Source: Acinetobacter chengduensis (GTDB taxonomy: Bacteria; Pseudomonadota; Gammaproteobacteria; Pseudomonadales; Moraxellaceae). From it: a stretch of DNA of 64,000 nt. The stretch lies in contig NZ_RCHC01000008.1 of assembly GCF_003664645.1 (NCBI RefSeq), positions 62,001 through 126,000 on the forward strand, given 5' to 3'. A program made the translations under genes and the position numbers. The notes under the pieces were generated by a model. It was not told the DNA's origin. It saw nothing but the letters and a program-made list of their open reading frames with translations, and did no database searches. Positions 31,982-62,418 of this stretch are shown here, in pieces (position 1 is the first letter of the stretch; every line of letters begins with the position of its first letter).

Positions 31982-32034
31982 GAATCTGGAGCGGGAAAGG
32001 AGACTCGAACTCCCGACCCCAACCTTGGCAAGGT
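31977..32034 (-). repeat. attL: 58-bp direct repeat with tRNA-Gly 3' fragment
   Basis: It is identical to 62361-62418. Bases 31987-32034 match the 3' 48 nt of tRNA-Gly (CCA end, acceptor 3' strand, T arm, variable loop and 3' anticodon side). The 5' half is absent, so this is a non-functional remnant created by island integration. Confidence 0.93.
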
Positions 32035-32275: not shown

Positions 32276-33535
32276 TCAATTCAATAAATGAATATTATGC
32301 TCAATCCTATTTTGGATCATCTGGAGAGTCTCTGTTTGAATTTGTCCAGGTAATAGATCATGAGCGATATTGCTGAATCGGATTGCAACCTTACAAATCG
32401 AGCCAATAATTTCATCGACTTCTTGGGCAGAAAGTTCCGCTTCCTGAGTACCAAGTTTTACAAGAGCTTGTCGAGGAATATCTAGTGCCTCACCCATGAT
32501 ATCCATTTGATGATATCCACCTGGCCCCTCACAGAAAGTAACATCATAGGCAGGGGAGAGTTTCCATTGCCCATTTTGGGACATCAGAAATGAAAAGTTT
32601 TTGCAATGATCATCTCGATTATTGAAGACTACATTGAAAACAGCTCGCTTGAATGCAATTGCTTTTTCGCGAACATCATTGGTGCAAAAGTGTGCAGCGC
32701 GAAGAAAGTTACTGTAGTCTAAACTCCCTGGTGATTTAAAATCAGCTCCGGTGAAGGCCGCTAAACTTTGCATAGGGATACGCATGCCATCGTGGCGGTC
32801 AAATCTCTTTGATGCAAATGCGGTTAATCCATTCGGAAGAGTAAAATATTGAGTGTCAGGGGTATCAATATGACAATGACGCAAACATTCTGCATAAACA
32901 GCTTCAATTGCACAAACTTCAGGATGCTCTTGCTGAGCGGGAAATTTGATCAGCCAAGCTTCATGTTGATGTGAGCTAACTGTTGAGAATTCGTTGGTGA
33001 CAGGATCACGATAGACGAGTGCTTTTGGCCTTGCACCTTGTGGAGATCCACCCATAATTAATAAATGCTGTAAAAATTCTGCACCTTCTCCTTTGAGAAC
33101 TTGCTGAACTTCTTGAGCGAGTTTAATCAGTGGAATATTTTCAGTTAATGCTAACTCAGTTGCTGAAGGTTCAAAGGATAATGCCCCCATTGCATGTGTA
33201 TTAATATACGTGAGTCGTTCTAATGGCCCAATCCGTGCTGGATTGAGTCCATTTTTTTTAAACAAGCGATCCATAAGAAGCATGCCCCAACCATCGGGTA
33301 GGGCATCATATATAGGACCTGGCAATCCCATTTGATGTGTAGGAAAGTTCGTTCTTAATGAGTCACCTTTTAATGGAAGTAGGTAAGAGGAAAGTTCTAA
33401 ACCTTTACTGATCGCTTCTGCACTGTATTCAAAGGCAATTAATGGCCGACCTGTGATTGCGGTTGAGGAGACCAGTGTACCCCAAAGCCAATATTCACCC
33501 CATCCATTGTAGTAAACATTAAGTTTTTTGAGCAT
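32276..33535 (-). CDS. hipA: HipA-like serine/threonine kinase toxin
   Basis: A type II toxin of the HipA family; E. coli HipA phosphorylates glutamyl-tRNA synthetase and causes growth arrest. The N-terminal subdomain has GTLVSSTAITGRPLIAFEYS and SSYLLPL. The kinase core shows MGGSPQGARPKALV, WLIKFPA, the catalytic loop FNNRDDHCKNFSFLM and the metal-binding PAYDVTF. The start is ATG 33535 with AAGGAAAT upstream, giving 419 residues and removing an overlap with hipB. It is 4 bp downstream of hipB and 240 bp from the island's left end. Confidence 0.92.
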   Translation of the reverse strand: MLKKLNVYYNGWGEYWLWGTLVSSTAITGRPLIAFEYSAEAISKGLELSSYLLPLKGDSLRTNFPTHQMGLPGPIYDALPDGWGMLLMDRLFKKNGLNPARIGPLERLTYINTHAMGALSFEPSATELALTENIPLIKLAQEVQQVLKGEGAEFLQHLLIMGGSPQGARPKALVYRDPVTNEFSTVSSHQHEAWLIKFPAQQEHPEVCAIEAVYAECLRHCHIDTPDTQYFTLPNGLTAFASKRFDRHDGMRIPMQSLAAFTGADFKSPGSLDYSNFLRAAHFCTNDVREKAIAFKRAVFNVVFNNRDDHCKNFSFLMSQNGQWKLSPAYDVTFCEGPGGYHQMDIMGEALDIPRQALVKLGTQEAELSAQEVDEIIGSICKVAIRFSNIAHDLLPGQIQTETLQMIQNRIEHNIHLLN

Positions 33536-33539
33536 GGAC

Positions 33540-33842
33540 TTATTTCCTTTTGATACGTTGGCGAGCCGTATTGCTCTCATAGCGGAGAATGTCATTTACA
33601 CTGTTTAAATGAGGTTTGAAGAGTTCCTCTAATTCTTTTAATCGGCCCAATACCATGGCAACGCGTACTAAATTTTCAAATGAAACATTTCGACCTGCTT
33701 CCAGATTAGATACTGTATTCACACTAATACCAGCACGTGTAGCGACGTCTGCCTGAGTCATTTCCAGATAAAGTCGTTCTTTGCGAAGCCTTTCACATAA
33801 TAACGTGACAACCTCTTCAGGCTTTTTGAATTTTAAATCCAT
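33540..33842 (-). CDS. hipB: HipB-like XRE antitoxin
   Basis: A 100-residue Cro/C1-type helix-turn-helix protein (LRKERLYLEMTQADVATRAGISVNTVSNLEAGRNVSFENLVRVAMVLG, about residues 18-68) directly upstream of hipA. HipB proteins bind HipA and repress the operon through upstream palindromes. A strong inverted repeat at 33947-33975 is a possible operator. Confidence 0.92.
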   Translation of the reverse strand: MDLKFKKPEEVVTLLCERLRKERLYLEMTQADVATRAGISVNTVSNLEAGRNVSFENLVRVAMVLGRLKELEELFKPHLNSVNDILRYESNTARQRIKRK

Positions 33843-34443
33843 AATATTGGGTCTTATATCTATATATATCTATTAAAACACAAAATAATGGATTTATAAA
33901 AATAAACCATTTGATGTAAGGAGGGTGCTTAATTGGCCTGATTAGATCTAATTAGACTAAAAAAGTCTAATTAGACATTTACAATTTAATAGAGTCTAAC
34001 AACCTGCTTTAAGCTTAATCAGTTTCGCCTGATGTCGCGAGGAACCAGTATTTGCTATCAGGTTAATCTGGAATATTTGGCACAAGTGGTTTGGAGCAAT
34101 GAGGTTATGGGCAGGGGTTTATCTTTTCTGATAACTTATTGGGTACCGATTCACAACTTATTCATCATATTCTGAAAATATTTCTTCAATTTCATTGTGC
34201 TGCGGCAATTTATGCTTTTTATTCACTTCGAATTGTAAACTAATACTGCAAATTCTTGTTTAAATGATCATTAAATTTTGTGCTAACTTGGACAGACATT
34301 ATTTGGCTAGTGGGACAAACAGTTATTGCTCTTTAAGATGATTAATTTTACCACTCACGCTTGGAAGTCTATATTAAATCATTACAGGAATGACTGGTAA
34401 ACCACGAATAAGAATGCGTGGCAAACTTATCCAATAATTTGCA
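33843..34443. other. 600-bp non-coding stretch between hipB and the recombinase operon
   Basis: It holds the hipB promoter side and a 12-bp perfect inverted repeat TCTAATTAGACT (33947-33958) / AGTCTAATTAGA (33964-33975) with a 5-A loop. The half-site TCTAATTAGA also occurs as a smaller palindrome. Near 33850-33880 is a TATATCTATATATATCTAT alternating tract. From about 34000 to 34443 I recognise nothing coding. It could include one end of a mobile element carrying the recombinase operon, but no matching end was found beyond 40213. Confidence 0.45.
33947..33975. promoter_or_regulatory. 12-bp inverted repeat upstream of hipB
   Basis: A perfect 12-bp stem with a 5-nt loop about 105 bp upstream of the hipB start. 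A HipB operator or a recombinase binding site are both possible; the sequence alone does not decide. Confidence 0.5.
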
Positions 34444-37407
34444 TTAAAGATGAGAAACTATCATCAGATACATCAGTAACTTGAATACCCCAAGTGCTTT
34501 TGCATCTTTATCCTTGAAGCAGAACTTAATTCGCCTTTCATTTTCAGTCAGGCTGAAGTTTTCTGCCCGTAATGTTAAATCCTGTAATGTCTTTTTGAGC
34601 TCTGTTTTGCTCTGCTGAGAGAGTTCTAAATGAAGATATTTTTTGGGAAATAAGCTATGAATAAAAGAAAGAAGTTTCTTCAGTTGCCGTTTTTCATTGA
34701 GTTCAAAAATTAACTGGGCTGAATTGGGCTGAGCTTTTTCAAGATAAATTGAGTAGATTGTATGAAGCTGTTTTTTGTATTTACTTTGTACATTTGCATA
34801 ACGCTCCTGAACATGTTGAATGACCTTTTTTTCCTCCTGATTGGTTGGCAACATGGTGACCAATGCATTCGGAGTTTTCCTTAAAAAATCTGTGGTAAAT
34901 AACCTCGATGATTTTTTTTGGTTTACACAGGAGGTTTTCAAATGCTGGGCTCTAGCACGTAATTTTTGCGCGATTTGCAAAGGAATAGTTTCAGGTAACA
35001 TAAGGTCTTGTTCTTTTTCTACTGCAAGAATGTGATGTAATAATTCAAAAGTCATCTCTGAGTCATGAGCTCCTAGCATCAGTGAATCAGGCGATTTCTG
35101 TTGACCTAGTTGAAATTGATGATCATGTTGCCTGTAACGGTCTTTAGTGAGTTGATGAAATAAAAACTGTTTGATCGCCCGCTGCTGAACAGGATATTTA
35201 ATGGCATCATCATGTTTCAGAATGTTAAAATAGGCTTCTTTAGGAAGCGGGCTGTGCATTTGATTCAGCTGGTAGCTAATTGCTAGATGCATTAAATGCA
35301 GATAGCTTGAACAAGTGGTTTCAGGCGTTAGGTGCCCGGCAAAATGAGAAAGTGCATACCAGGTTTGCTGAGTATTTCTGTTTCGCAACAATGCATAACG
35401 GATACGTAATTGCTCATGTGGGCTATAGTCAGTAAATGCATCTGCAAGTGTTGAGTTTTTTAAAATCAGGTAAAGATGATTAAATGCAGAATGGCGCAGA
35501 CTATGGTAAGTAAAATTGTGTTCTCCAAAAACTGTCTGGATCAATTGTTTCAATAGGGAATTCACTTCATTTTCATGAGTTTCTTCTAAGGACTGTTTTA
35601 AAAACAGCGGTTGTGTAACTGATTTTCCCTGTTCTTTTAGCAGACGTTTTCTATTCTGACTATATGTTTTAAATGTATGTAATTCGTCGGCTTTAAGTAG
35701 ATGATGCAGGGGAATCTTGCGGTAAGCTGAGTAGCTTTTTTGATTTTTATTGCGATTGTTGCGAATGGTGAGTATCACAGCATCTTCACTAATCAATAGA
35801 TCACGTACGAAGATATTCAATGTTTCATTGATCCGTAGTCCGACTCTGAACCCCAGAATAAAAATCAGTTTAAATATATTTTTATCCTGAATCGAAATAT
35901 CTTGAGTATTTTCGAGCTGCTCTAGCATGTGGTAAAAAATATGGGGCGAGATCAATGCGGTTCTGCAGATTTTTACTTGGATTAAACTATCCAGATCCAC
36001 AGTGGGCGCGTTAAAAAATAATGTCTGTTTGTGATGAAACTCCTGTAGACGTTTTTGTAAAGTCTCTCTAGTTGTTTCTTTCTTTAATAAAAGCATTTCT
36101 CCATACAGATCTTCAAAATCGGCATTTGAAAATGATGAAATGTCTTTGTCTTGCGTTGCCATCAGCCAATCGATGGCAAACTGTGAAAACATGGTATTTA
36201 GAGAGCTTTGCTTAATAGGTTGAAAATCTGCACGTATAAGCTTGCGCTCAAATCGTTTCTGTTGTTGGATAATTTGATTTAAGCAGTTTAATTGAGTCTC
36301 TGTTAATTTGGAACGTAGGATGGTCCACAGCAACAAACGCTCTAAGGCAGGAGACAGTTCTCTGGAATATAACCCTATGAGTTGATCTTTATAGTTTTTT
36401 GCACGAATGGCTTGACGTATTTCTACAAGAGTTTCTGCTATATCTGATGCGATATTGACTCTAGAGTGGTTCTGATGGTTTTCACAAGTATTCTCAACTT
36501 TAATGTTATTGGTGTGCTTTTGTTCAAACTGAACAAAATAAGCTTCTAATTGTTTTTCGAGAGGACTGGAACTGTAAATTTCATTTTTTAGGATACAAAT
36601 GGACATTTGATCCAGTCCGCTGTTTTTCAGGAACTGTGTATAGTAAAAGCCGTATTTTAACAGGTCTTTACAACGTACCTTTTCCTCAGGGAAGCATTCA
36701 ATAATACAAGCGTTAATCAGATGTTCTGCATCTTCAATATCCGAAAATAAATCAAACTTTTGATGTTTAAGTCTGTAGATCCAGCATTTCACAATGTCGT
36801 GTAGCACAAACGTTTTTGTATAGCTGACTGAAAAATCAGGGTCAATTATACGCTGATTACCGAAATTCCGGTTCGGGATTTCGAGTGTTACCATATGATT
36901 TAGGTTTAAAAAACTTTGAAATTTCTTTGTTTTTAAAATGATTTTTAAAAAAAATTGCAATTCGGCATGGTTATAAATGCCATTAAATAATATTGAACTG
37001 ATCAAACAAAAGCCAAGAGATTGAGTGGGACTGAAGTCATTATGTTTTGTCAAGTAAGCAATCATATTTTGGGCAAATTGAGTAACTTTTTTACCATGTT
37101 TTAAGGTTTCAATATTTTGTAGTGGCAGAGATCTTTCGTACCTTACGGGAGCGGCAGGCACTGGATAGTAGTGATTCGATGAAAGATTAAAGCGCTTGAT
37201 ATATTTAGCAAATTCTATACGTGCCATCTGATAGCTACGGATGTTTGACTTACAGTGTTCTAAAAGCTGATTATCAACTTGACGACAAATTTCCGAATAG
37301 TTCTCAGGCGTCAGCTCTATACATTTCTCACTAAACAAGTTCAGAAGAAATGCTTTGTTTTTTCTATGCTTTTTTATTCTTTTGAGGGAGTGTGGGTGTT
37401 TACTCAT
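34444..37407 (-). CDS. Very large tyrosine recombinase (987 aa), third gene of a coupled operon
   Basis: A site-specific recombinase-like protein about three times the length of XerC/D. The catalytic domain is central-to-C-terminal: Arg525 in GFRVGLRINETL, a basic beta-region around 550-565, His635 and Arg638 in TYHSLRHSAFNH, His692 in HFAGHLTPE and the likely nucleophile Tyr702 in SSYLHLM. So all canonical residues can be placed. About 500 N-terminal and 280 C-terminal residues have no domain I recognise. The start overlaps the stop of the preceding recombinase gene by ATGA. Large partner recombinases of this sort are known in multi-recombinase modules (Tn554, RIT and GInt-type elements); membership in one is inference. 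Confidence 0.8.
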   Translation of the reverse strand: MSKHPHSLKRIKKHRKNKAFLLNLFSEKCIELTPENYSEICRQVDNQLLEHCKSNIRSYQMARIEFAKYIKRFNLSSNHYYPVPAAPVRYERSLPLQNIETLKHGKKVTQFAQNMIAYLTKHNDFSPTQSLGFCLISSILFNGIYNHAELQFFLKIILKTKKFQSFLNLNHMVTLEIPNRNFGNQRIIDPDFSVSYTKTFVLHDIVKCWIYRLKHQKFDLFSDIEDAEHLINACIIECFPEEKVRCKDLLKYGFYYTQFLKNSGLDQMSICILKNEIYSSSPLEKQLEAYFVQFEQKHTNNIKVENTCENHQNHSRVNIASDIAETLVEIRQAIRAKNYKDQLIGLYSRELSPALERLLLWTILRSKLTETQLNCLNQIIQQQKRFERKLIRADFQPIKQSSLNTMFSQFAIDWLMATQDKDISSFSNADFEDLYGEMLLLKKETTRETLQKRLQEFHHKQTLFFNAPTVDLDSLIQVKICRTALISPHIFYHMLEQLENTQDISIQDKNIFKLIFILGFRVGLRINETLNIFVRDLLISEDAVILTIRNNRNKNQKSYSAYRKIPLHHLLKADELHTFKTYSQNRKRLLKEQGKSVTQPLFLKQSLEETHENEVNSLLKQLIQTVFGEHNFTYHSLRHSAFNHLYLILKNSTLADAFTDYSPHEQLRIRYALLRNRNTQQTWYALSHFAGHLTPETTCSSYLHLMHLAISYQLNQMHSPLPKEAYFNILKHDDAIKYPVQQRAIKQFLFHQLTKDRYRQHDHQFQLGQQKSPDSLMLGAHDSEMTFELLHHILAVEKEQDLMLPETIPLQIAQKLRARAQHLKTSCVNQKKSSRLFTTDFLRKTPNALVTMLPTNQEEKKVIQHVQERYANVQSKYKKQLHTIYSIYLEKAQPNSAQLIFELNEKRQLKKLLSFIHSLFPKKYLHLELSQQSKTELKKTLQDLTLRAENFSLTENERRIKFCFKDKDAKALGVFKLLMYLMIVSHL

Positions 37408-39584
37408 TCAATCAGGAATCCGTTAAATGTAGACATACTTTTAAGCTTTAAGAGTTCGACCAGCTTGTCTTGCGCTGCTCGAATGTGATCGTAATCGGTT
37501 GCCTGAAAACCCGAATAGCGGTCAAAAAGTTCCTGCATGGGCCCATCGTGACCAAAGATGCCATTCAGCATATCTTCATCGCAGTGCTGTGCAAAAAAAT
37601 AGCGAGCGAAATGGCGAGTCCAATTGCGCTGCAAAACTATAGTTGGACTGTTCTTTTCAATATCAGCAAGCTCTAAATTTCGGATATATCCTTCAGTCTT
37701 GGGATATACAAGAAAGGGGCATTGACCATCAAAGATTTCTTGAATTAAAGCTGTTTTTACTTGGTTAGCACAAGCCTTCATAAGATGCTGAAATTGTTTT
37801 AAATAATTCAGATAAGACTGTATTTCATCACGAAGAAAATTATTAAATGGTAGGTAGCGTCCAATGGTACCCGAATAACGTTGCTCTTTATCTGCAACAG
37901 CCACCAAACAGTTGTCGAGATCAAGATAATCGAGATTCGGGGGAAAGGCTTCATTTGGTCGGGCAGATGTCATAATCATGCAAACGTACCATAGCCAAAT
38001 TGAATAATATTTCAGTGTATTAAAAGGGTTAGGGTTTCCCCGAACTTGCTTGTCAAGCTCTTTAAAAAAGGATTTAACCAGAGGCAGGTCTGGCGTTTGC
38101 TGACTACCGAAAGTAACAGGGGATTTAAATTCTTCGATATAACTAGTGTCGAGTTGCGGGCAAACCAGATAAAGCGTTTGGCTATAAATATCGAGGATAT
38201 CAACAATTTTCATTGAATAGTAATGGCTTGGGGTGTAGCTATTAACGTTTTCTCCACTAAGTAATTTACTTTCCAATTCATATCCGAGTTCATTCAACGT
38301 GATATCGCTGATTAAACGAGGAAGGTTTCGAGCTGTTAAATGAAAAGTAAGGCCGTCACTGATTCTACGTAAATATTCTTGTACATCTGAAGCAATATCA
38401 GCTTTATCCCACTTTTTTAGTTGAAAAATCTGATCAAAATAAACTTTGGGTAAGGGGATGGTAAAAGAATTTCCTATATTCAGCATATATTCTTTTAATA
38501 AAGCATCTTTAAATTTAGAGTTATCAAAACTTTGCCGAAAATAGAAGTTTTCAGGGCTAAAAGTAATTTCTTTTCTTTTTGAACTCAGACGGAAATTTTT
38601 CCGAAATACTAATAGCTCTTTATAATGCGTCAAACTGAGTACTGAAAATAAAAGTAAGGCATGAATTGGAGAGGTTTCTGCCTGTTCAAACAAAATTCGC
38701 ATAATATACTGTGCGGTAGGCAAATCAAAGACACGAGGATTTGACTTGCTCATTAACTGATTCTTGTTTTGATGCAGAACTTTGTTCTTGAGATTATTGA
38801 CCTGAGCTGTAATAGAGTATTGCTCAAGAGGATTAAATTCAAAATTATGATCTTCAACTTTTTCTATAGTTTTATCTTCGCGTGGTTGTTTAGCTGTACC
38901 TTGTTCAAAATGAGTCTGATACGTTTGTTCATCATCGAGAGATATTCTTGATATCTTTTGAACATCAGTTTGAGGAGCTTCTTTGGCACCTGAACTGCTT
39001 TGGCGATTTCGTTTTAAACGTTCAGACTGAGTAAAGACATATTGATAGATGACACGTAGATTTGCCAGCTGGCCAATTTGTTTTTCATCTAAATTTGGTG
39101 TGGAGCGGTTAAGTAACTCTCTATTCTCTGTTTCAGCTTTATTTAAAAACTTAAGAAGATCCTCCAACTCAATAGGGAGAGGTGGTAATAAGTTATAAAG
39201 CCAATGGTATTCCTGTTTTTTGCTGGCTAAACGAAAACGTCTACAGAGGTTAGCTACAGTGGCTGCATGTTCTTTGCTATCAAGCAATTCAATACATCGA
39301 GTATTAAAAATGGCCCATTTCAGGGCATTAGCTTGATATGCTGAAGGCGTATTAATGACTGCAATAAGATAATGAACGAGAGGATATTCACTGATTGATT
39401 GTTCTACAAGTTTTTGATTTATAATATTGTTAAGTTCAATAATTTTAGTAGGTTTAATGAACTCATTGAGTTTGATTGAATTTTGAAAACTTTCTAGCTT
39501 TGCTTCTGCTAGTGTTTGATAGAATTCTCGAAACGGCTCAAGCTTTAATTCTTGAGTATCTTCTAAGTAACTATATCCGTTCAT
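37404..39584 (-). CDS. Large tyrosine recombinase (726 aa), second gene of the operon
   Basis: A second recombinase-like protein. Arg542 lies in MIMTSARPNEAFPPNLDYLDL, Lys566 in VADKEQRYSG, His658-Arg661 in NWTRHFARYFF, His679 in IFGHDG and the likely nucleophile Tyr690 in ELFDRYSGF; the catalytic set is therefore complete. The first 500 residues are not recognised; residues about 190-245 are polar and probably disordered. It overlaps the upstream small gene and the downstream 987-aa gene, each by ATGA, indicating translational coupling and a fixed stoichiometry. GIntABCD- or RIT-like elements are the nearest concept I know. Confidence 0.8.
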   Translation of the reverse strand: MNGYSYLEDTQELKLEPFREFYQTLAEAKLESFQNSIKLNEFIKPTKIIELNNIINQKLVEQSISEYPLVHYLIAVINTPSAYQANALKWAIFNTRCIELLDSKEHAATVANLCRRFRLASKKQEYHWLYNLLPPLPIELEDLLKFLNKAETENRELLNRSTPNLDEKQIGQLANLRVIYQYVFTQSERLKRNRQSSSGAKEAPQTDVQKISRISLDDEQTYQTHFEQGTAKQPREDKTIEKVEDHNFEFNPLEQYSITAQVNNLKNKVLHQNKNQLMSKSNPRVFDLPTAQYIMRILFEQAETSPIHALLLFSVLSLTHYKELLVFRKNFRLSSKRKEITFSPENFYFRQSFDNSKFKDALLKEYMLNIGNSFTIPLPKVYFDQIFQLKKWDKADIASDVQEYLRRISDGLTFHLTARNLPRLISDITLNELGYELESKLLSGENVNSYTPSHYYSMKIVDILDIYSQTLYLVCPQLDTSYIEEFKSPVTFGSQQTPDLPLVKSFFKELDKQVRGNPNPFNTLKYYSIWLWYVCMIMTSARPNEAFPPNLDYLDLDNCLVAVADKEQRYSGTIGRYLPFNNFLRDEIQSYLNYLKQFQHLMKACANQVKTALIQEIFDGQCPFLVYPKTEGYIRNLELADIEKNSPTIVLQRNWTRHFARYFFAQHCDEDMLNGIFGHDGPMQELFDRYSGFQATDYDHIRAAQDKLVELLKLKSMSTFNGFLIE

Positions 39585-40213
39585 GATGATATTCCAGCCA
39601 GAATTTTTTCTAATGAAAGTGGACCAGCATAATTTGAAATAGGACTTACTGGACTTTTGGATTTAGACAGCCCTGATAATTCTCGTAGATGATTGATAGT
39701 TAGAACTTCCTGACCGAAAACTTCCTGAAGATGTGCGGCTAAGTATTGTTCATTTAGCCAATGTGCGATGATATCTAAGCCATGAATTGAGTGATGTAAT
39801 CCGGAACATAGTAATGCCATTACTTCGCTTAAAGCCATGATGGTGAATTCGTAGGAATTATTTTTTTCATAAGCTCTAAACGTAAATTCAGTTTTATACT
39901 TATTGTAAAAATAAGCATAGATCCAGCTGAAATGACTACTAAAAAAATAGTGACCAGCTTTGTCTGTTGTCAGAAGAGGAATTTCGATATTCTGTTTAAA
40001 AGTTAAATTCAAGTGATAGTTTTGCTGTTTCTCATTAAGCTGAAAAAATAGAGCAATCCAGATTTGGTAGGCATGCATACATTTTGGATAACACATTAAT
40101 TGTAAGTTTTTTGAAGATACACGATGACTTTTAATAGCTTTTTTTTTATAGACATATGCTGATGTCTCCCCATATTTATGCCAAGTGGCTGAAAAATAAG
40201 CTATAATATTCAC
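39581..40213 (-). CDS. Unknown protein (210 aa), first gene of the recombinase operon
   Basis: I do not recognise this protein. It is rich in aromatic residues (many Tyr, Phe, Trp and His), has no signal peptide or clear membrane span, and ends with a polar Ser/Pro-containing tail (SGLSKSKSPVSPIS). It shows no Arg/His/Tyr recombinase signature. Its stop overlaps the 726-aa recombinase start, so it is probably an accessory protein of that recombinase pair, like the small third protein in Tn554-type sets. The start at GTG 40213 lacks a clear ribosome-binding site and is uncertain; the next ATG would remove about 39 residues. Confidence 0.6.
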   Translation of the reverse strand: MNIIAYFSATWHKYGETSAYVYKKKAIKSHRVSSKNLQLMCYPKCMHAYQIWIALFFQLNEKQQNYHLNLTFKQNIEIPLLTTDKAGHYFFSSHFSWIYAYFYNKYKTEFTFRAYEKNNSYEFTIMALSEVMALLCSGLHHSIHGLDIIAHWLNEQYLAAHLQEVFGQEVLTINHLRELSGLSKSKSPVSPISNYAGPLSLEKILAGISS

Positions 40214-40275
40214 GTATTTTTTATAGGAGAGTCAAGGGTTGCGCACCCTATATTGTGTTATTAAATTGTAAATTT

Positions 40276-40289
40276 CACTATATATAGTG
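40276..40289. promoter_or_regulatory. 14-bp palindrome upstream of the recombinase operon
   Basis: The perfect palindrome CACTATATATAGTG lies about 65 bp upstream of the first gene. A second short inverted repeat, AGGGT-N5-ACCCT, is near 40237-40251, and TTGACT is nearby on the minus strand. It may be an operator or a recombinase site. Confidence 0.45.
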
Positions 40290-40347
40290 TTTTTAATCTT
40301 TTTAGCGGTAGTTAAAACCCTATTGAATTATGTTTTTAGTAAATATG

Positions 40348-41386
40348 GGCTTTGTTGCACAAACCTATCGGTAAAGGGTTTTTCAGCGATATAATTTTCA
40401 AATGAAGAAGCCTACACACAAAATCTACCGCACAACCAATTGGCCCGCATATAACCGAGCACTCATGAGTCGCGGAAATATTGCCATTTGGTTTGATCCT
40501 GCTACGCAATGGTATGCGCCATCAAAAGGCAAACAAGGGCGAAATCAAACCTACTCTGACGCAGCTATCCAATGCTGCTTAATGATTAAATCCTTATTCC
40601 GTCTATCTTTACGTATGGTCACTGGCTTTGTGCAAAGTCTTATTAAACTTTGCGGATTAAATTGGACCGCACCAGATTACAGTACGCTTTGTAGAAGACA
40701 AAAGCATATTGATATTGCAATCAGCTACCAAAAAAGTAGCGATGGGCTGCATCTACTCGTAGACTCTACAGGCATGAAGTTTCTAGGTGAGGGCGAATGG
40801 AAACGCAAGAAACATGGAGCTGAATATCGTCGCCAATGGCGTAAACTTCATATTGGTATAGATGCTAAAACCCTACAAATACGAGCAGTTCAGCTTACAA
40901 CCAATAATGTCAGTGATTCACAGGTGCTTGGTGATTTACTTAATCAGATTCCACAAGATGAGCAGATTAACTGTGTTTATACCGATGGAGCTTATGACAC
41001 CAAGCAATGCCGTCAGGTCATTGCAGATCGGCAAGCACATGCGGTGATTCTACCTAGAAAAAATGCGAAACCATGGAAAGATACAAAGATTAGCTCGCTA
41101 GAGCGAAATGAATTACTTCGAGCAATTAAACGTTTAGGCAGGACACTATGGAAAAAATGGTCAGGCTATCATCGGCGAAGTTTGGTTGAAACTAAGATGC
41201 ATTGCATCAAATTATTAGGAGATAAACTCAGTGCAAGGAGTTTTGATAGCCAAGTGAATGAGATCCATGCACGTGTAGCAGTCCTCAACAGATTTACGGA
41301 ATTAGGTCGACCACTTACCCAAGTTACGCCTTAAATTTGGCTCAATTAGGGGCGCTTTGCATTTCAAATCTTTGTGCAACAAAGCC
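40348..41386 (+). mobile_element. IS5-family insertion sequence (IS903-group type), 1039 bp
   Basis: Perfect 16-bp terminal inverted repeats GGCTTTGTTGCACAAA bound a single transposase gene. The 1039-bp size agrees with several Acinetobacter IS5/IS903-group elements. The 9 bp on the two sides (GTAAATATG and GTTTAAGAA) differ, so no target duplication is present. The right end cuts into a decayed transporter gene. This points to a deletion or recombination next to the IS. Confidence 0.93.
40402..41334 (+). CDS. IS5-family transposase
   Basis: A DDE transposase of 310 residues. The three acidic residues lie in LLVDSTGMKF, VYTDGAYDTKQ and RRSLVETKMHCIKLLG. The N-terminus has WFDPATQW and the YSDAAIQCCLMIKSLFRLSLR helix typical of the IS903 group. 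The ORF is intact and fills the element between its inverted repeats, so it could be active. Confidence 0.95.
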   Translation: MKKPTHKIYRTTNWPAYNRALMSRGNIAIWFDPATQWYAPSKGKQGRNQTYSDAAIQCCLMIKSLFRLSLRMVTGFVQSLIKLCGLNWTAPDYSTLCRRQKHIDIAISYQKSSDGLHLLVDSTGMKFLGEGEWKRKKHGAEYRRQWRKLHIGIDAKTLQIRAVQLTTNNVSDSQVLGDLLNQIPQDEQINCVYTDGAYDTKQCRQVIADRQAHAVILPRKNAKPWKDTKISSLERNELLRAIKRLGRTLWKKWSGYHRRSLVETKMHCIKLLGDKLSARSFDSQVNEIHARVAVLNRFTELGRPLTQVTP

Positions 41387-42668
41387 GTTTAAGAATGAAA
41401 AGAGAGAAAGAAGCAATGATTGCGGGTATAGCTAATAGGGATAGAATCATAGTGATATTTAAATCTAATGCCATTAGCCATCCTCCAATAAATTAACCTG
41501 CACGACCTACGGGGCATTAGCCCAACTAACACCTGTTGCTCGACAGTGTGTAGGATAAAAATTAGCTGAATACGCATTCATGCCTGTTTGCCCACCACTT
41601 ATAAAAAAGCCAACAGCAAACATAGTTAATATCAATAAGATTAGTTGATGACTGAATAAACCACTAAATACAACAAAGATAGCCCCTAATATATATGAAG
41701 TGGATAAAATTCTATTTCCACCCATCTTATCCATTGATAACCCAAGAGGATAGACCCGATAGTTCCTCCTATTTGGAAAACTGCTGTAATCATAGAGGCA
41801 CTTTTTAATGAATGACCAATATTTGTTAAAAGTGTTGGTAGCCAGCTAGATATTAAGTAAATGGTCATTAGACTCATAAAATAAGCTATCCAAATTAATA
41901 TAGTGCTGAAAGAAAATTTTGAATTAAACAAGTCTCTTACAGATGATTTACTTTTTTCTTCTACATTTGCATGTAATTGGGGACATGTAGAAATTGTTGG
42001 CGATAATTTTTAAATTAATGCATCAATTTGAGGTTTTGCATGCTGTTTTAAAACTTTAAAGCGAAGAGATTCAGGAATAAAAATATAGAAAACAGGTAAT
42101 AAAATTAGTGGGCATATTCCTCCTAAGAAGAGAATTCCACGCCAACCTATGAATGGAATAAGTTGGGCTGAAATTATGCCACCAAGTGCGGAACCAATAG
42201 TAAATCCACAGAACATAAGCGTGACAAATGTTGATTTTTTTGTACTTGGGCTATATTCAGACATTAAAGTGATTGCTGTTGGCATTGCACCGCCTAACCC
42301 AATACCAGTGATGAGTCTTAATATAATGAGGGAGAGCATATTTGGAGAAAAGGCGGATAATAGGCTACCTAATCTGAAAAAAAGAACAGAAATAAGTAAA
42401 ATCTTTTTTCTACCCAGCCGATCTGCCATTGGACCGAAAAAGAAAGCTCCTGAGGTTAATCCAATAAGACCTGCTGCAAATAGAGCTCCTAATTGTCCAG
42501 GACTTACTCCCCAGTCCTGTTTTAAAACGGGAGCAATAAAACCATTGATGCAGTATCAAATCCATCAAGAGCGACAATGATAAAACATAATAAGAGTAAA
42601 ATTTTTTGAGTAAAACCAAAGCGAATAGAATCAATAAATTCTTGAACATCCATGTTACTTAGAGACAT
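41387..42668 (-). pseudogene. Decayed AAHS-family MFS aromatic-acid transporter (PcaK-like), truncated by IS
   Basis: Start ATG 42668 follows AGGAGG. The protein reads MSLSNMDVQEFIDSIRFGF and then the AAHS signature DGFDTAS. There is a 1-bp loss near 42548, a good stretch with MADRLGRKKIL and EYSPSTKKST, an in-frame TAA at about 42011, another 1-bp loss near 41740 and a further shift near 41515. The last segment (GWLMALDLNITMILSLLAIPAI) runs into the IS5 element, which removes the end. It would have imported a hydroxylated aromatic acid for the adjacent ring-cleavage genes. The original length was probably about 440 residues. Confidence 0.9.
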
Positions 42669-42723: not shown

Positions 42724-43572
42724 TTAGCCGACTGAAATCGTATTACGTAGTACGCCAATTTTGTCGATATGAATCTCTACCTGATCTCCTTCTTTCATGA
42801 AGACAGGTGGATTGCGTTTTGCACCTACACCAGCAGGGGTTCCAGTGACGATTACATCTCCAGGATTCAAAGTAATGAAAGTTGAGCAATATTCGATTAA
42901 CTTAGGAATTGGAAATAACATCATTGATGTATCGCCTTGTTGCATGATTTCCCCGTTCAGTATTGTTTTGACCGTCAGGATTTCACCATTAGCAATTTCA
43001 TCCTTAGTTACTAAGTAAGGCCCGAAGCTACCAGTTTGATAGAAATTTTTTCCTGGACCGAATTGTTGTGTATGCCATTGCCAGTCACGAACGGAACCAT
43101 CGTTGTAACAGCTATAGCCAGCTACATAATCCCATGCTTCACTTTCTTTAACTCGACGTCCTTGTTTGCCAATGACAACAGCAATTTCGCCTTCATAATC
43201 CAGCATGTCAGATTCAATTGGCTTAATAATGGGTTGAAGGTGAGCAGTTTGGGAGTCTGCATAACGCATAAATACAGATGGATAATCTGTTTTAGCTCGA
43301 TTGGTTTCAATACGATGTGCTTCATAGTTATGACCAATGCAAAGTACTTTACTTGGGTTAGGGATAACAGGAAGTAAAGTAACTTCTGCGTGCGAATAGG
43401 AAATTGGTGCAGAAGCAGCATATTCTTTAATGCGTTCAAGTGCTTTTTCTCCTAGAGCACTTTTTAGATCAGGAAACTCTGAGCCAAATTGAGGCTTCAA
43501 ATCAATGATGCCATCATCTGTATAAACGCCATATGATTCTTTACCAGAATGAGTAAAACTTGCTAATTTCAT
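42724..43572 (-). CDS. Fumarylacetoacetate hydrolase-family protein
   Basis: A FAH-fold enzyme of 282 residues acting on a ring-cleavage product (hydrolase, hydratase or isomerase/decarboxylase type). The core includes KVLCIGHNYEAH, the metal ligands in LDYEGEIAVVIGK, then DGSVRDWQWHTQQFGPGKNF and VIVTGTPAGVGAKRNPP. It is 30 bp downstream of the FAD monooxygenase, in one leftward operon with that gene and the extradiol dioxygenase. I infer that it processes the product after meta cleavage; the precise reaction is open. Confidence 0.87.
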   Translation of the reverse strand: MKLASFTHSGKESYGVYTDDGIIDLKPQFGSEFPDLKSALGEKALERIKEYAASAPISYSHAEVTLLPVIPNPSKVLCIGHNYEAHRIETNRAKTDYPSVFMRYADSQTAHLQPIIKPIESDMLDYEGEIAVVIGKQGRRVKESEAWDYVAGYSCYNDGSVRDWQWHTQQFGPGKNFYQTGSFGPYLVTKDEIANGEILTVKTILNGEIMQQGDTSMMLFPIPKLIEYCSTFITLNPGDVIVTGTPAGVGAKRNPPVFMKEGDQVEIHIDKIGVLRNTISVG

Positions 43573-43602
43573 TTAATTTCCCTTCGTATATAAAATTAAT
43601 AT

Positions 43603-45189
43603 TTAGGTAGTAACCATGTCCGTTGCAGCTTCTGTCTTGTTACCTGCGAATAGCTCTGTTGATCGAACAATTTGATAGCTATAGCGATCTGGGCGGATAA
43701 CTAAAGCTTCAGCTTTTAAGCTGTCTAAAATATGTGCTATTGATCCTGAATCATCACGGATTAAAGTGAATTGATCGGGAACTTTTATTTGTTTGTAGTC
43801 AATTTTTTCATTTAGCAATGCAAGAAATTTTATAGGTACATTTTTAGGTACTAGCTCTTCTATGGAGTCAAAATATTCCTGATTTGCCCAACCAATCACA
43901 GCAAACCCATTCCTTAGATATTCATCTAATAACTGGGTATTACCGTATATATCCTTAACTTTAGGCTGTGGAATTAATTGAGCATATTTATGCTGCCCCT
44001 TATTAATAAACCATCCATTTTGGAAATGTGGTTTTGGTTTAAATTTGAGTTGTAAGATATAGTCTTTAAATGTAGGTACTAAACAAGCAGCTCTTAAACC
44101 ATTTTGCATTAAGATGGCACTAAACTTATTTTTAGGCTGCATAAAAGTACCGATTTGTAATGCCATTTTAATAAGTGCCGCAGCATGCGGTTTACGTTCT
44201 GACTCATACGAGTCAATTAGGCTTTCATCGAGCCCCCAATGCAAGACTGCTGCTAACTTCCATGCAAGGTTAGTTGCATCTCTGATTCCGCTATTTAAAC
44301 CTTGACCTGCAAATGGAGGAGTAAGATGGGCTGCATCGCCTGCCAATAGAATTCGATTTTTCTTCCAAGAAGAGGCGACACGAGCGTGAAAGCCATAAAT
44401 AGCTTTGCGTACTAAAGGCAATCTTGAGTCTTCAGGAACTCTTGTACGTATCCAATTTCTAAAAACATCTTCACGTAATACATCTTGGTCTTTGTCAGTA
44501 GGATGTAGCATAAATTCATATCTTAAAGTTCTATTGGGTCCTGGGAGGCGAATAGCAGGTCTTACAGGATCACAGTAGGTCTTAGTGTGTTTTAAGCTAC
44601 TTTTTCGATCTGCTAAATCAACGATTAACCATCTTTGTGGATATGTTTGACCTTCTAAGACAACATTTATTAGGTCACGAGTAAAGCTTCGCCCTCCATC
44701 ACATCCTACAAGCCACTTAGCATGAATTTGAATTGACTTTTGAGATGTATTTTGAACTTCACAAATAACAGAATTGCTAGTCTCTTGAATATCTATAAGT
44801 TGATGACAAAATTTGAGAGATGCATTTTTTTGAGTATTTAAATGATCAGCTAGAAGTCGAACTAAATCTGGCTGACGGAATGCATTACGTTTTGGATAAC
44901 CATACTCTTCACTAGCAGGCATAATTTCTGCTAAAGGTTTATTCTTCCAATCGTAATATTGGACTCCATAGCCCAAAACAATTTGTTCTGAGAATTTTTT
45001 AGCAAGACCTATTTGTTGTAAGCTTCTTAAGCTTTCATCATCAATTGAGACTGCACGAGGTTCAATTTCATAGGAATCACTTTTTTCAATAACTATGGTA
45101 TTTACACCATAAGATGCCAACATATTTGCCAACATCAAGCCTACAGGTCCGGCGCCTACTACCAGAACTTCAGTATTTATAGTTTCCAT
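43603..45189 (-). CDS. FAD-dependent aromatic hydroxylase (MhpA/PheA-like)
   Basis: A class A flavoprotein monooxygenase of 528 residues. It starts with VLVVGAGPVGLMLANMLASYGV, has an ARG-type EPRAVSIDDESLRSLQQIG segment, WLVGCDGGRSFTR (DG motif) and the ribityl-binding GDAAHLTPPFAGQGLNSGIRDATNLAWKL. The C-terminal thioredoxin-like region is present. Layout fits 3-(3-hydroxyphenyl)propionate hydroxylase-type enzymes, which ortho-hydroxylate a phenol to a catechol. It is followed by the FAH gene and preceded by the dioxygenase gene, so hydroxylation then ring cleavage is the likely sequence. Confidence 0.9.
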   Translation of the reverse strand: METINTEVLVVGAGPVGLMLANMLASYGVNTIVIEKSDSYEIEPRAVSIDDESLRSLQQIGLAKKFSEQIVLGYGVQYYDWKNKPLAEIMPASEEYGYPKRNAFRQPDLVRLLADHLNTQKNASLKFCHQLIDIQETSNSVICEVQNTSQKSIQIHAKWLVGCDGGRSFTRDLINVVLEGQTYPQRWLIVDLADRKSSLKHTKTYCDPVRPAIRLPGPNRTLRYEFMLHPTDKDQDVLREDVFRNWIRTRVPEDSRLPLVRKAIYGFHARVASSWKKNRILLAGDAAHLTPPFAGQGLNSGIRDATNLAWKLAAVLHWGLDESLIDSYESERKPHAAALIKMALQIGTFMQPKNKFSAILMQNGLRAACLVPTFKDYILQLKFKPKPHFQNGWFINKGQHKYAQLIPQPKVKDIYGNTQLLDEYLRNGFAVIGWANQEYFDSIEELVPKNVPIKFLALLNEKIDYKQIKVPDQFTLIRDDSGSIAHILDSLKAEALVIRPDRYSYQIVRSTELFAGNKTEAATDMVTT

Positions 45190-45228
45190 ACTTTTCCCTT
45201 TTACGAATATGTTGATTTGTGTTGAAAA

Positions 45229-46035
45229 TTAACAGCGCATAATCGCAACGCCCCATTGATTGAGCGTAAGAGGGTGATGTTTCCAAATGCCAACTGGGCG
45301 ACCCGATGAACACTGTTCAAGCTCTGCCGAAATTTCCCCCATATTTCCATCGCTATCTTTAATCATGAAAAATGTGTCATTGCCAGGACCATGGCGACCT
45401 ATTCCCCAAGCGAGTTCAATTGAGTTTTGAGCCATATGATCTGCCCACGTCTTCATTTCTGCCCAATCACGTACTTCACAGGAAAAATGGTCAAAACGAT
45501 TAATTGGAGATTTAAAAATTGCAAAAGAATGATGCTCTTGGTCAGTTCTGATAAAAATAGCAGTAAGTTCTTGTTGTTCGTTATAAACGCGGTCAGAAAT
45601 AGTAAATCTTAAAGTGTGCTCGTAAAATTCACTAAGAGAATCGATATCTACAGCACGAATTCCAAAATGTTGTAAACGAGGAGATTCATTAGGATTAAAC
45701 CTTTCATGTTCATTAAAACTAAAACCTATATTATGCCCTAATGGATTTGTGATGGTAAATTCATTATCAGAAATATTATTAATCTCAATTTTCTCTTTTA
45801 AATATAATCTATAGTTTTCAAAATCTGAATAATTATTAAAAATATAGTCTATACAAGATAATTGTCCTGATTCTCCAGGAATAAATTCTAATATTACTTG
45901 CTCTTTCTGACAGATAAATTGATTGTCTAGTTTTAAGAGGTCAAGTTTGTATGCCTGTGCATAAAATTCTGCAAGTTCCTCTGGAGTTTTTGAGCTTAAA
46001 GTAAGCTTCTTCAAACGTGCACCAATCTCTTTCAT
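45229..46035 (-). CDS. Extradiol (VOC-fold) ring-cleavage dioxygenase
   Basis: A two-domain glyoxalase/VOC protein of 268 residues, like catechol 2,3-dioxygenase and 2,3-dihydroxybiphenyl dioxygenase. Likely iron ligands are His in LQHFGIRAVDI, His in DHFSCEVRDW and Glu in MGEISAELEQ; HGPGNDTFFMIKD matches the C-terminal signature. It is the first gene of the leftward operon with the hydroxylase and the FAH-family enzyme, and it is divergent from an IclR gene. Substrate cannot be read from sequence. Confidence 0.87.
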   Translation of the reverse strand: MKEIGARLKKLTLSSKTPEELAEFYAQAYKLDLLKLDNQFICQKEQVILEFIPGESGQLSCIDYIFNNYSDFENYRLYLKEKIEINNISDNEFTITNPLGHNIGFSFNEHERFNPNESPRLQHFGIRAVDIDSLSEFYEHTLRFTISDRVYNEQQELTAIFIRTDQEHHSFAIFKSPINRFDHFSCEVRDWAEMKTWADHMAQNSIELAWGIGRHGPGNDTFFMIKDSDGNMGEISAELEQCSSGRPVGIWKHHPLTLNQWGVAIMRC

Positions 46036-46204
46036 AAAACTTCCTTTTTTATCCGATCTTTCGTTTGTAGAGATTTTGAATGAAATAATTTGTACTTAAA
46101 TTTTAATTCTTATATATTGAGAAAATTCTATAAATTAGTTTTAAGAATCTGATTTTTAAAATTTAAATAGATACAATTATTTAGTTGTGTATGGTGTATC
46201 AAGG

Positions 46205-46963
46205 ATGTCGAAGCTACATAATTTTGCAAAGTTATTGACTCTATTTAAAACTCACACTTTTATAGATGTAGAAAAAGTCAGAGTAGAATTAGGCTTATCT
46301 ACTGCTTCTGCCTACCGGTATTTGTCTGATTTTGAATCTATAGGACTATTAGAAAAGAAAACCCCATCTAATTATATTCTTGGCTCCTTGATTATTGAGT
46401 TAGATCGAAATATTCGTGAGAATGACCCATTAATTCAATCAGCTCACCTTTTAATGACTGAAATAGCTAAACAATATGAAGAGTCCGTACTAGTTTTATC
46501 TAGGCTATATGGTGAAGATAAAGTACTTTGCGTGCATCAATTTAAAGGAAAAAATTGTAATTTTAATATTAGTTATGAAAGGGGTAAAACAATGGAAATA
46601 TTTAAAGGAGCAACTTCTAAATCAATATTGGCATGGTTAAATGAAAGTAAAATTGAAGGAATATATAATAAAAACTCTAAAGAAATTTTGAAAATTACTA
46701 AATGTAAATCCTATGAGGACTTTTATAAAAAATTAATGGAAATAAGGAAGAATAAAGTATGTATAACTATAAGTGAACTAGATAAGGATGTTTATGGTAT
46801 TGCTTCTCCAATTTTTTTTAAAAATAAATTAATGGGTAGTTTAAGTATAGTACTTCCCGAAAAAGAGATAAATAGACTTAATTTAAAAAAAATAAGCGAT
46901 ATAATCCACAGAGCTAGTCTACAAATTTCTGCAAAAATTGAAATGTATGATAATTTTTACTAA
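46205..46963 (+). CDS. IclR-family transcriptional regulator
   Basis: An N-terminal winged HTH (LHNFAKLLTLFKTHTFIDVEKVRVELGLSTASAYRYLSDFESIGLLEK) is followed by an IclR effector domain with TSKSILAWL and YGIASPIF. Base composition is very AT-rich. It is divergent from the dioxygenase operon, so it probably controls it. The start is ATG 46205; a GTG at 46187 is an alternative. The 127 bp after it hold no gene before the IS982 element. Confidence 0.85.
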   Translation: MSKLHNFAKLLTLFKTHTFIDVEKVRVELGLSTASAYRYLSDFESIGLLEKKTPSNYILGSLIIELDRNIRENDPLIQSAHLLMTEIAKQYEESVLVLSRLYGEDKVLCVHQFKGKNCNFNISYERGKTMEIFKGATSKSILAWLNESKIEGIYNKNSKEILKITKCKSYEDFYKKLMEIRKNKVCITISELDKDVYGIASPIFFKNKLMGSLSIVLPEKEINRLNLKKISDIIHRASLQISAKIEMYDNFY

Positions 46964-47091
46964 AACATTGACGATCTTAAAAATAGGTCAAAGACTTTAA
47001 AGGGTATTAAATAGGGAAAAGTAGTTAGAAACAATAGTAAAAATTAAATCTCAATAGTTATAGAAATAGGCCCATTTAAGAATCTAATATA

Positions 47092-48065: not shown

Positions 48066-48091
48066 TAATATAGATGAGCCTAAGTTAAGCC

Positions 48092-48868: not shown

Positions 48869-48894
48869 ACTATATTCCTTGTGATGTTAAGAGT

Positions 48895-49692: not shown

Positions 49693-49738
49693 ACTGACGA
49701 CCTTCTTACGCTGATGAGTTTTATTTAAAGTTCATTAT

Positions 49739-49810
49739 ATGGACTTAATTTGTATTTTAATACTCACACAAAAATTGTATTTTTTAAATACAGTAACTTG
49801 ATAAGTCCAT
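49739..49810. promoter_or_regulatory. Candidate IclR operator region
   Basis: Between the IclR gene and the divergent SDR gene are nested symmetric elements. ATGGACTTA (49739-49747) is inverted as TAAGTCCAT (49802-49810). Inside lie GTATT-TT-AATAC (49752-49763) and GTATTT-TTT-AAATAC (49777-49791). The two GTATT palindromes are about 25 bp apart. Confidence 0.62.
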
Positions 49811-49854
49811 CAGGTGGATTTTTTTTATTTATTCTTTTTTATGGAGTTAATGAT

Positions 49855-50601: not shown

Positions 50602-50637
50602 TTTTGATATAAATATTTGATTTAAATGGATGTATTT

Positions 50638-52011: not shown

Positions 52012-52080
52012 GCTAAACCTTTTTTAACCACGTATATAAAGAAATTGTGATTTTTATAAATCGCAAGGGGAGACTTTGCC

Positions 52081-52932: not shown

Positions 52933-52943
52933 GGAGATTAATA

Positions 52944-55774: not shown

Positions 55775-55790
55775 TTTTGGAGTTAATCTA

Positions 55791-60054: not shown

Positions 60055-60303
60055 TTAGTGAGCGAGACTCATTAACCGGAGACGGGCCTGTTGGGCCAGG
60101 TCATCGTAATGGGCTTGCCCTTCATCCAGCATTCGCTGTAGCCAGAGTCTCAATGCTTGGTGATCATCGAAGCATTTATTGATTTCCAGCAAAAAGGCCA
60201 GATTGTGCAGTTTGGGAATGTGTAACTCATGAATGAGTTCACGCGCGACCATATCTGCTTCTGGGCTAACGACTACACCGCCAAAGAAAGCTTTACTGTT
60301 CAT
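60055..60303 (-). CDS. Small phage-type protein of unknown function (82 aa)
   Basis: I do not recognise this protein. It is charged and mostly helical in character (VARELIHELHIPKLHNLAFLLEINKCFDDHQALRLWLQRMLDEG), with no signal or membrane segment. It starts inside the integrase stop (11-bp overlap) with GGAG upstream, so it is translationally coupled to int. Confidence 0.65.
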   Translation of the reverse strand: MNSKAFFGGVVVSPEADMVARELIHELHIPKLHNLAFLLEINKCFDDHQALRLWLQRMLDEGQAHYDDLAQQARLRLMSLAH

Positions 60304-61477
60304 GGGCAAGCTCCTCTGTATTTAGTTTCTCCAGCATGGCTTCAAAAGCACTGCCATCGCGACGCGTAACATTGGGAATGTAACGGCTATAGACCCGGAA
60401 CAGCATTTCAGTGGTTGAATGTCCCAGCTGGCGTGCGATCCATTCCGGATTCTCACCTGCCGACAGCCAGAGCGTTGCAGCGGTATGACGTGTTTGATAA
60501 GCACGACGAGGCTTTAGCCCTAAAAAGCGTAGCAGGGGATGCCAGACACGCTTGTTTACCAGGCGATAATCGAGAGGCCCACCATCACGATTGCAGAAAA
60601 CAAAACTGGATTTACTATTATTTAAGCTTTTCTGTTGCAGAAAGGCCTGATAAACTCGATCACTCATTTGGATGGTACGGTCAGAACCATAAGTTTTGGT
60701 TCCACCCAGAACACCATTCACTAACGCTTCTCTGATATGGATTTCACGACGTTGTAAGTCGATATTTTTCCATTGAAGACCATCGATTTCACTGGTACGC
60801 ATACCTGTGAAAAAGCGAATGGTGTAATAAGGTTTAAAATCTTCACGTACTGTAGTAAGAATTTTATGTACCTCTTCCAGAGAAAAAGGTGTGACTTCGA
60901 TCTTACTTTCCTTCAGATTGTTTATATTTTTATACGGCGACTCAAAATCATATCGTTCTGCCGCATCATTCAGTATCATACGTAAAGGCGTCATGATTTG
61001 ATTAATCCTGGATGCTTTCAGACTTGTTTGATCTTTTCCGTGAGTCACTTTGGCGAGGGAAGCACGGAAGTTCAGCAAGTCTGACTTCTTAATTTTTGAG
61101 AGAACCTGATTACCAAAAGCAGGGATCAAATAGTTTTTGATTACAATTGAAACCTTTTGTTGATATGAAGTCCTCCATTCAATTTGTTTCTGTTTAAACC
61201 ACAATTCAGTAAACTCTTTAAAAAGAGGAACCTTGGTTTGTACAGCGATTTGCTGACTTCTTTTTTCCTTAAACTCCTCAACACGGTTACTTTTTGGAAA
61301 GTACTTTTCGTATTCAAAAGTTCCCAAAGTAATTTCAGCTTCAAGCTGTTCGAGACGTTTTTTCAAAATGCGTCGGTTATAAGCATTGTCTTCAAGATTG
61401 GTTGTCTCTCTACAACGAATGCCCATGTAGCGAAAGTCGGCAATCAGTTTGCCACTTCGTTCCCGGATGGTAGCCAT
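60293..61477 (-). CDS. int: Tyrosine integrase of the tRNA-Gly island
   Basis: A phage-type site-specific recombinase of 394 residues. The N-terminal arm-binding region (MATIRERSGKLIADFRYMGIRCRETT) resembles the DUF3596 domain, followed by a SAM-like core-binding domain. The catalytic domain has Arg in FFTGMRTSEIDGL, YQTRHTAAT (YxxR form of HxxR, common in this subgroup), His in ARQLGHST and the nucleophile in RVYSRYIP. AGGAGG precedes the start. It lies about 0.9 kb from attR, so it is the enzyme that should have inserted the island in tRNA-Gly. Confidence 0.95.
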   Translation of the reverse strand: MATIRERSGKLIADFRYMGIRCRETTNLEDNAYNRRILKKRLEQLEAEITLGTFEYEKYFPKSNRVEEFKEKRSQQIAVQTKVPLFKEFTELWFKQKQIEWRTSYQQKVSIVIKNYLIPAFGNQVLSKIKKSDLLNFRASLAKVTHGKDQTSLKASRINQIMTPLRMILNDAAERYDFESPYKNINNLKESKIEVTPFSLEEVHKILTTVREDFKPYYTIRFFTGMRTSEIDGLQWKNIDLQRREIHIREALVNGVLGGTKTYGSDRTIQMSDRVYQAFLQQKSLNNSKSSFVFCNRDGGPLDYRLVNKRVWHPLLRFLGLKPRRAYQTRHTAATLWLSAGENPEWIARQLGHSTTEMLFRVYSRYIPNVTRRDGSAFEAMLEKLNTEELAHEQ

Positions 61478-62365: not shown

Positions 62366-62418
62366 GAATCTGGAGCGGGAAAGGAGACTCGAACTCCCGA
62401 CCCCAACCTTGGCAAGGT
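62361..62418 (-). repeat. attR: 58-bp direct repeat at the island's right end
   Basis: Identical to 31977-32034. It forms the 3' half of the intact tRNA-Gly gene plus the terminator T-tract. Confidence 0.93.

Follow-up and report, generated by a model that had tools for sequence, protein, structure and literature searches.

A conserved operon of a small protein and two large tyrosine-recombinase-like proteins as a candidate recombination module in Acinetobacter and its relatives

We analyzed three adjacent genes, here named A, B and C and together the trio, in a stretch of 64,000 nucleotides from Acinetobacter chengduensis (assembly GCF_003664645.1, contig NZ_RCHC01000008.1, positions 62,001 to 126,000 of the forward strand). 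This stretch is called the window, and its own numbering is used below. An earlier reading of the letters alone, the original prediction, had proposed an operon of a 210-residue protein and two giant tyrosine recombinases joined by ATGA overlaps. All three open reading frames (ORFs) were recovered on the minus strand with the coordinates proposed there, and both the A-B and the B-C junctions were confirmed as 4-base ATGA overlaps. The genes below were taken from the ORF list, while the two domain intervals were calculated by hand from the residue ranges.

39581..40213, minus strand: gene A, 210 amino acids, GTG start
37404..39584, minus strand: gene B, 726 amino acids
34444..37407, minus strand: gene C, 987 amino acids
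37443..38105, minus strand: part of B for residues 494-714, tyrosine-recombinase-like domain (R542, K566, H658, R661, H679, Y690)
35296..35916, minus strand: part of C for about residues 498-704, catalytic region
40214..40347, no strand: upstream region of A with the palindrome-like ACTATATATAGTG, inferred as probable promoter/operator
34443..34444, no strand: break of DNA conservation directly after the C stop codon; close relatives carry alternative downstream DNA

The palindrome-like ACTATATATAGTG was retained upstream of A in most close relatives, and the region 40214..40347 is the probable promoter/operator of the trio. Used as a query protein, C gave a single match in the assembly of the window. 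The Pfam scan of the window trio returned nothing significant for A or B, and the NCBIfam scan returned no significant match for two of the three proteins.

Protein C matched the Pfam family Phage_integrase (PF00589) over residues 498-646 with an E value of 9e-8, and XerA and its relatives when compared with the sequences of solved structures. Residues R525, K557, H635, R638, H692 and Y702 were retained in all 73 distinct sequences of C, where, as for B below, only full-length copies were counted. By its R-K-H-R-H-Y set and the PF00589 match, C belongs to the tyrosine recombinase superfamily.

The model of B had a mean predicted local distance difference test (pLDDT) of 77.9 and a predicted template modelling score (pTM) of 0.57. 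Residues 494-714 of this predicted model matched the archaeal Xer structure 4a8e (VIA-align Z 15.6, 2.6 Å over 167 residues), and B is thereby modelled with a tyrosine-recombinase fold; the comparison of B with the sequences of solved structures gave nothing significant. Among the aligned sequences R542, K566, H658 and H679 were present in 74 of 74, and R661 in 62 of 74 (Q in 11 and M in 1). The tyrosine column held Y in 28 of 74 (otherwise F 17, M 17, N 7, H 2, Q 1, S 1 and one gap); it lies in a loop of low confidence (pLDDT below 50 at residues 681-690), so that single letters in it may be misplaced. Since the tyrosine was kept in only 28 of the 74, B may often be a pseudo-recombinase. All catalytic residues that the original prediction had named were found in both window proteins, and the set was conserved among the relatives of C, but among the relatives of B the tyrosine was replaced in most. 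Loss of catalytic residues in homologues, named with the original prediction as counting against it, was thus seen for B and in none of the 73 sequences of C.

For A, the AlphaFold2 model had a mean pLDDT of 80.5, a pTM of 0.78 and a helical C-terminal part. When this model was compared by VIA-align, the 23 top rows of 27 were ParB, Noc, KorB, PadC or sulfiredoxin, the best reaching Z 8.5 with a root-mean-square deviation of 3.2 Å over 92 residues; these rows were drawn from Foldseek's own matches, and a Z near 8 taken alone can be due to chance. A search of A against the sequences of solved structures gave nothing significant and no match to ParB; this result, like the NCBIfam scan of A proteins described below, neither supports nor contradicts the fold. 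A is referred to here as a protein with a predicted ParB/sulfiredoxin-type fold.

Profiles were seeded with the window proteins and refined in repeated rounds on the fetched loci; they recovered relatives of A, B and C lying adjacent to each other. An intact B-C pair was defined by a C of at least 900 amino acids and a B of at least 600 amino acids, and broken or cut copies were dropped before counting. An A-type ORF lay just upstream in 83 of the 86 intact pairs, and thus the small protein almost always accompanies the two large ones, which had been raised as a question together with the original prediction. The 86 pairs include some genomes fetched by two routes; 74 loci were left after near-identical ones were removed, with the double L020/L037 still among them. 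Overlaps or gaps of at most 10 bases were found at 83 of 86 B-C junctions and 79 of 83 A-B junctions, the longest ORFs being counted. Iteration raised the hits of the A profile from 15 to 98, so the most distant A members rest on position and score.

C was matched at 1e-8 in 60 of 175 genomes of the genus, in some only over the catalytic part, and B was matched in 198 plasmid records, all from Acinetobacter. A pattern-based scan, in which each species was represented by a single genome, yielded 88 B relatives; the best 80 of the 88 were kept, corresponding to 79 loci and coming nearly all from Acinetobacter, Psychrobacter or Moraxella. In a sample of 369 genomes of the class, B was matched in 4, with the window's own counted in, and a Vibrio plasmid was found to carry all three genes. 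Relatives were located on plasmids and on chromosomal islands with differing neighbours, and not at a fixed chromosomal position as expected for an immobile gene set. No B relative was confirmed in viral_contigs and the Vibrio B protein had no match in phage records, and a phage or virus origin of the trio was rejected on these results. Two types of trio were distinguished, a short one, to which the window belongs, and a long one, with 20-24% identity between them in B and C. Two divergent C types were also seen on one contig in G105:C1 (126960-129884 and 136486-139446, both in one orientation and under 10 kb from each other), G038:C13 and G096:C7. As a separate observation, the contig of L055 is named Streptomyces cinereus JCM 3040 and holds a trio type otherwise seen in Moraxellaceae, which is probably an assembly contamination.

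Comparison of DNA around the trios revealed exchange of the whole gene set. Loci L025 and L026 had both flanks in common with L013, L053, L065 and L080, despite short trios in one group and long trios in the other. In short-type loci the common upstream flank, 85-96% identical, extended to about -80 to -170 of A. The common downstream flank was 77-89% identical and began no more than about 65 bases from the C stop codon. Other locus pairs had one flank in common, or none. Among 162 pairs with similarity of at least 80%, the DNA similarity ended at -120 to +60 of the C stop codon in 103, at +61 to +300 in 4 and further out in 55, while among 37 pairs of at least 92% the corresponding numbers were 22, 0 and 15; the pairs are not independent, with related loci and single insertion sequence (IS) events counted repeatedly. 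Of the 22 close-pair breaks, 5 involve L064 with IS-like DNA after C, 4 involve L100 and 2 come from the doubled L020/L037 against the window. Divergent trios between common flanks, together with conservation that often ends at the C stop codon, indicate that the trio is exchanged as a cassette. Nearly identical copies were found between species as well: A. tandoii DSM 14970 and A. ursingii DSM 16037 shared 12.9 kb at 99.93%, and 6.9 kb of an A. johnsonii plasmid recurred at 99.2% in a second genome of the genus. Outside this segment the DNA of the two was different or diverged.

Two further observations concern the borders of the trio. The BREX-like DNA that follows C in L096 (from +76) and L101 (from +953) was 99.3% identical, while the trio stretches of these loci were about 86% identical, and therefore either the trio or the BREX segment has probably been exchanged recently. 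In 12 Psychrobacter loci (L084, L085, L087, L089, L093, L096-L099, L101, L102 and L110), a 72-residue helix-turn-helix gene and an opposite gene of 106-108 amino acids precede A, and conservation often stops near the stop codon of the latter gene.

The trio was compared with known systems as they are described in the cited papers. The SE operon consists of intA-tfp-intB-srap, with active IntA and IntB, a Tfp that has the fold and lacks the motif, and a small Srap; its joined ends (attS) are imperfect inverted repeats with a 6-bp spacer, and in Acinetobacter SEs are often embedded in plastic regions with their ends not identified (PMC10214605). The trio resembles it in having a large active tyrosine recombinase, a protein of that fold lacking the catalytic motif, and an accessory protein that is small, but the SE has four genes in another order (545, 614, 671 and 161 amino acids in the pAQU1 copy), whereas the trio has three with the small one first. 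SE membership was rejected after hmmsearch --max of the A, B and C profiles against the four pAQU1 SE proteins gave a best E of 0.034, with 7 proteins searched and one SE represented, a comparison that leaves room for distant homology. GInts carry ginABCD at the 5' end of the element, encoding three integrases and a small helix-loop-helix protein; GinC lacks the first arginine, GinD is small, 10-11 nt direct repeats flank the element, and the cargo, which varies between islands, begins at the stop codon that closes the last gin gene (PMC5385486). Both the recombinase operon with its small accessory protein and the cargo beginning at the last stop codon are reminiscent of the trio, but three integrases with a small protein differ from a small protein followed by two large recombinase-fold proteins, and GInts were set apart by this description. 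RITs consist of three recombinases of 315-410 amino acids with catalytic tyrosines, and Tn554 carries TnpA, TnpB and TnpC (PMC10214605); RITs are further described with 34-bp terminal inverted repeats, and Tn554 with a 6-bp footprint. They share with the trio the set of cooperating tyrosine recombinases, and RIT was likewise set apart by description, differing in sizes and composition. The suggestion that the trio is a nested element of the Tn554/RIT/GInt concept is unproven, since flank comparison gave no element ends. Its composition also departs from the published descriptions of RIT and GInt.

The Gamma-Mobile-Trio (GMT) is a trio with offensive and anti-phage cargo (PMC12715929). Membership in it was rejected: in NCBIfam scans, 49 A, 45 B and 45 C proteins gave no match, and two outlying trios gave none either. 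NF040692 (recomb_assoc), which we take to be a GMT protein, had no NCBIfam hit among the 49 A proteins at E up to 10, nor with the Vibrio A protein. At L128, the one GMT-like NF040692 locus compared, the proteins were of 441, 908 and 200 amino acids with the small one last, in contrast to 210, 726 and 987 in the trio; its 908- and 200-residue proteins had no similarity to the trio by profile comparison, and all three had none by hmmsearch. A 159-residue gene, GreA/GreB-like by eye, was seen near the NF040692 protein in L128 (9177-9656) and L130 (1424-1903). By gene order and, where tested, by sequence, the trio is not filed as SE or GMT, and by composition it is not filed as GInt or RIT, a separation made by description, with the Tn554 and Gin sequences outside the comparison. 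The trio probably works like the SE, GInt and GMT systems but would be of another family, and no description of it was found in the literature searched, which covered few subscription papers.

We favour, with a confidence a little above even, the reading that the trio is the recombination module of a tyrosine-recombinase mobile element, mainly of Moraxellaceae, that moves with the DNA behind C. In such a module we infer that A, B and C form a complex, that the complex recombines DNA and that neighbouring DNA moves as a result. C would cut and rejoin the strands, and its long N- and C-terminal parts would recognise the ends of the element. B may be a DNA-binding or architectural partner that is possibly catalytic in the clade of the window, and in many relatives it would be a pseudo-recombinase. 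A has the predicted ParB-like fold and might assemble on DNA close to the operon, thereby organising the complex, while translational coupling would keep the three proteins in proportion. The module and the DNA directly after the C stop codon would then travel together within larger plasmids and tRNA islands. This mechanism agrees with that of SEs, by Tfp, and of GInts, by GinC and GinD, as far as PMC10214605 and PMC5385486 describe them. A more specific version is rather unlikely in our estimate: the trio would be a distinct machine in which a protein of ParB fold, perhaps loaded at sites close to the operon, brings in a pair of giant recombinases, one catalytic and one usually dead, that swaps cassettes behind the C stop codon, and the islands and plasmids of Moraxellaceae would thus hold a dedicated exchange site for defence and metabolic genes.

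Several results weigh against the mobile-element reading. The fold match of A was weak by Foldseek (best E 0.047), and neither A nor B had a significant sequence match to recombinases or ParB. In 55 of the 162 pairs the downstream similarity continued beyond +300, alignments tend to end at coding ends in any case, and simple homologous recombination within the flanks could account for the cassette exchange. The trios clustered by host genus, with 3 changes for Acinetobacter and 2 for Psychrobacter against about 22 with shuffled labels (on a quick tree with long branches), so that intergenus transfer looks rare. Across the loci compared, neither terminal repeats nor a target duplication, a clean empty site or a circular form came to light, and therefore the mobility of the trio is put forward as a proposal. 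The flanks were searched for in 173 genomes of the genus, and of the 11 loci fetched as a result none has a clean join: L199 is a deletion remnant in which the beginning of A survives, L200 shows IS pieces separating the flanks, L201 contains a trio, L205 runs into transposase genes, L206 and L209 retain pieces of C, and the remaining candidates have one flank only. Among plasmids, L210 and L214 with the trio and L212, L213 and L217 lacking it had both flanks in common. The existence of plasmids with the two flanks and no trio counts in favour of the mobile-element reading, but in these three about 850 bp of other DNA replaces the trio in place of a clean empty site.

At the plasmid site L117, an NTF2-like gene is joined to the DNA that follows C in L016; the junction is sharp, its reading is unclear, and the same record bears a second, divergent B-C pair elsewhere. 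In six plasmids (L117, 11820-12010; L142), the NTF2-like gene was seen to be truncated at the exact base where the C stop codon ends in other plasmids.

The trio might instead be a defence or anti-mobile-element system itself, with A (and B) recognising incoming DNA and C cutting or rearranging it. The genes around it are consistent with such a role, as BREX genes lie directly downstream of C in L211 and, by eye, in L096 and L101, an I-F CRISPR system stands beside the trio in L013 and type I restriction in L014, and a scan of 118 of the 195 representative proteins encoded nearby gave matches at 1e-10 to PADLOC models of several system types. Defence loci typically hold divergent alleles at the same site, too, and two C types can share one contig. 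However, the window trio itself matched no PADLOC model at E up to 1, many of the neighbouring genes serve metabolism or transport, enrichment is not claimed from the neighbour matches because they have no control set, and defence genes are ordinary cargo of mobile elements as well. We consider this explanation improbable, at about one chance in a handful. Other recorded neighbours are an Xre/MbcA-type gene downstream of C in 21 of 86 loci, and HipBA.

Replicon maintenance, in which a ParB-like protein and a recombinase pair resolve multimers or partition the plasmid or island, would fit the predicted fold of A and the position of several plasmid copies near rep or parAB. We regard it as quite unlikely, since many copies lie on chromosome-sized contigs, plasmids with the same flanks exist without the trio, and trio-bearing plasmids carry their own ParA/ParB. 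Least likely of all is a mostly inert passenger operon spread by homologous recombination, IS elements and the integrase of the carrier, for although several trio copies are broken or interrupted and their neighbours are IS-scarred, the gene order was kept and the six catalytic residues of C were unchanged in all 73 distinct full-length sequences across deep divergence.

C was matched in about a third of the genus genomes examined, although Pfam and NCBIfam leave two of the trio proteins of the window without a significant match. Should the trio mobilise neighbouring DNA, it would help to explain the shuffling of defence genes (BREX, CRISPR, restriction) and other cargo in Acinetobacter plasmids; for the GR13 plasmid group, PMC9455709 puts the shuffling down to pdif modules and IS elements. 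The mobile-element reading, if true, would also add an independent case of the SE/GInt pattern of an active tyrosine recombinase, a same-fold partner without the full motif and a small accessory protein, and the role of the inactive subunit would become testable.

In the window, the trio occupies one end of a roughly 30-kb island, and a 394-residue integrase lies at the opposite end. The original prediction that the island has its own integrase was borne out, and its view of the trio as a second recombination-type system, separate from that integrase, is supported. The features around the trio were as follows.

31983..32034, no strand: island end, 52-bp tRNA-Gly stretch, 96% identical to the second tRNA-Gly; lies in a 114-base segment that matches 62306-62418 at 86%
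62367..62418, no strand: other island end, inside tRNA-Gly 62371-62446; 52-bp repeat of tRNA-Gly sequence
60293..61477, minus strand: the island's own phage-type integrase, 394 amino acids, apart from the trio; Arm-DNA-bind_2 and Phage_integrase
40348..41386, plus strand: IS5-family insertion sequence adjoining the trio upstream and outside the module; from Pfam and NCBIfam scans and DNA comparison of relatives
32276..33842, minus strand: HipB/HipA-like pair between the trio and the island end, a neighbour and cargo; from the ORF list and domain scans

Beside the IS5-family element, a frame at 41686-42429, recognised by eye as MFS-transporter-like, is split into ORFs of 81 and 139 amino acids and appears broken. 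A degradation-type cluster occupies 42724-58403 of the island and includes an IclR-type regulator, a flavin monooxygenase, an OprB-type porin and aldehyde and alcohol dehydrogenases; flavin adenine dinucleotide (FAD) monooxygenase-like and fumarylacetoacetase-like proteins were recognised in it by eye.

A repeated motif just after C in Psychrobacter was tried as an attachment site and rejected. In 6 genomes its first half was present in 3 to 10 copies each, in many cases at the end of a contig and, by eye, beside transposase-like sequence, and it was therefore taken for an IS end. In L054, L062, L068, L074 and L086, a short IS-end-like sequence stands a few bases after the C stop codon at nearly the same place, and perhaps an IS in Psychrobacter prefers the site just behind this stop codon.

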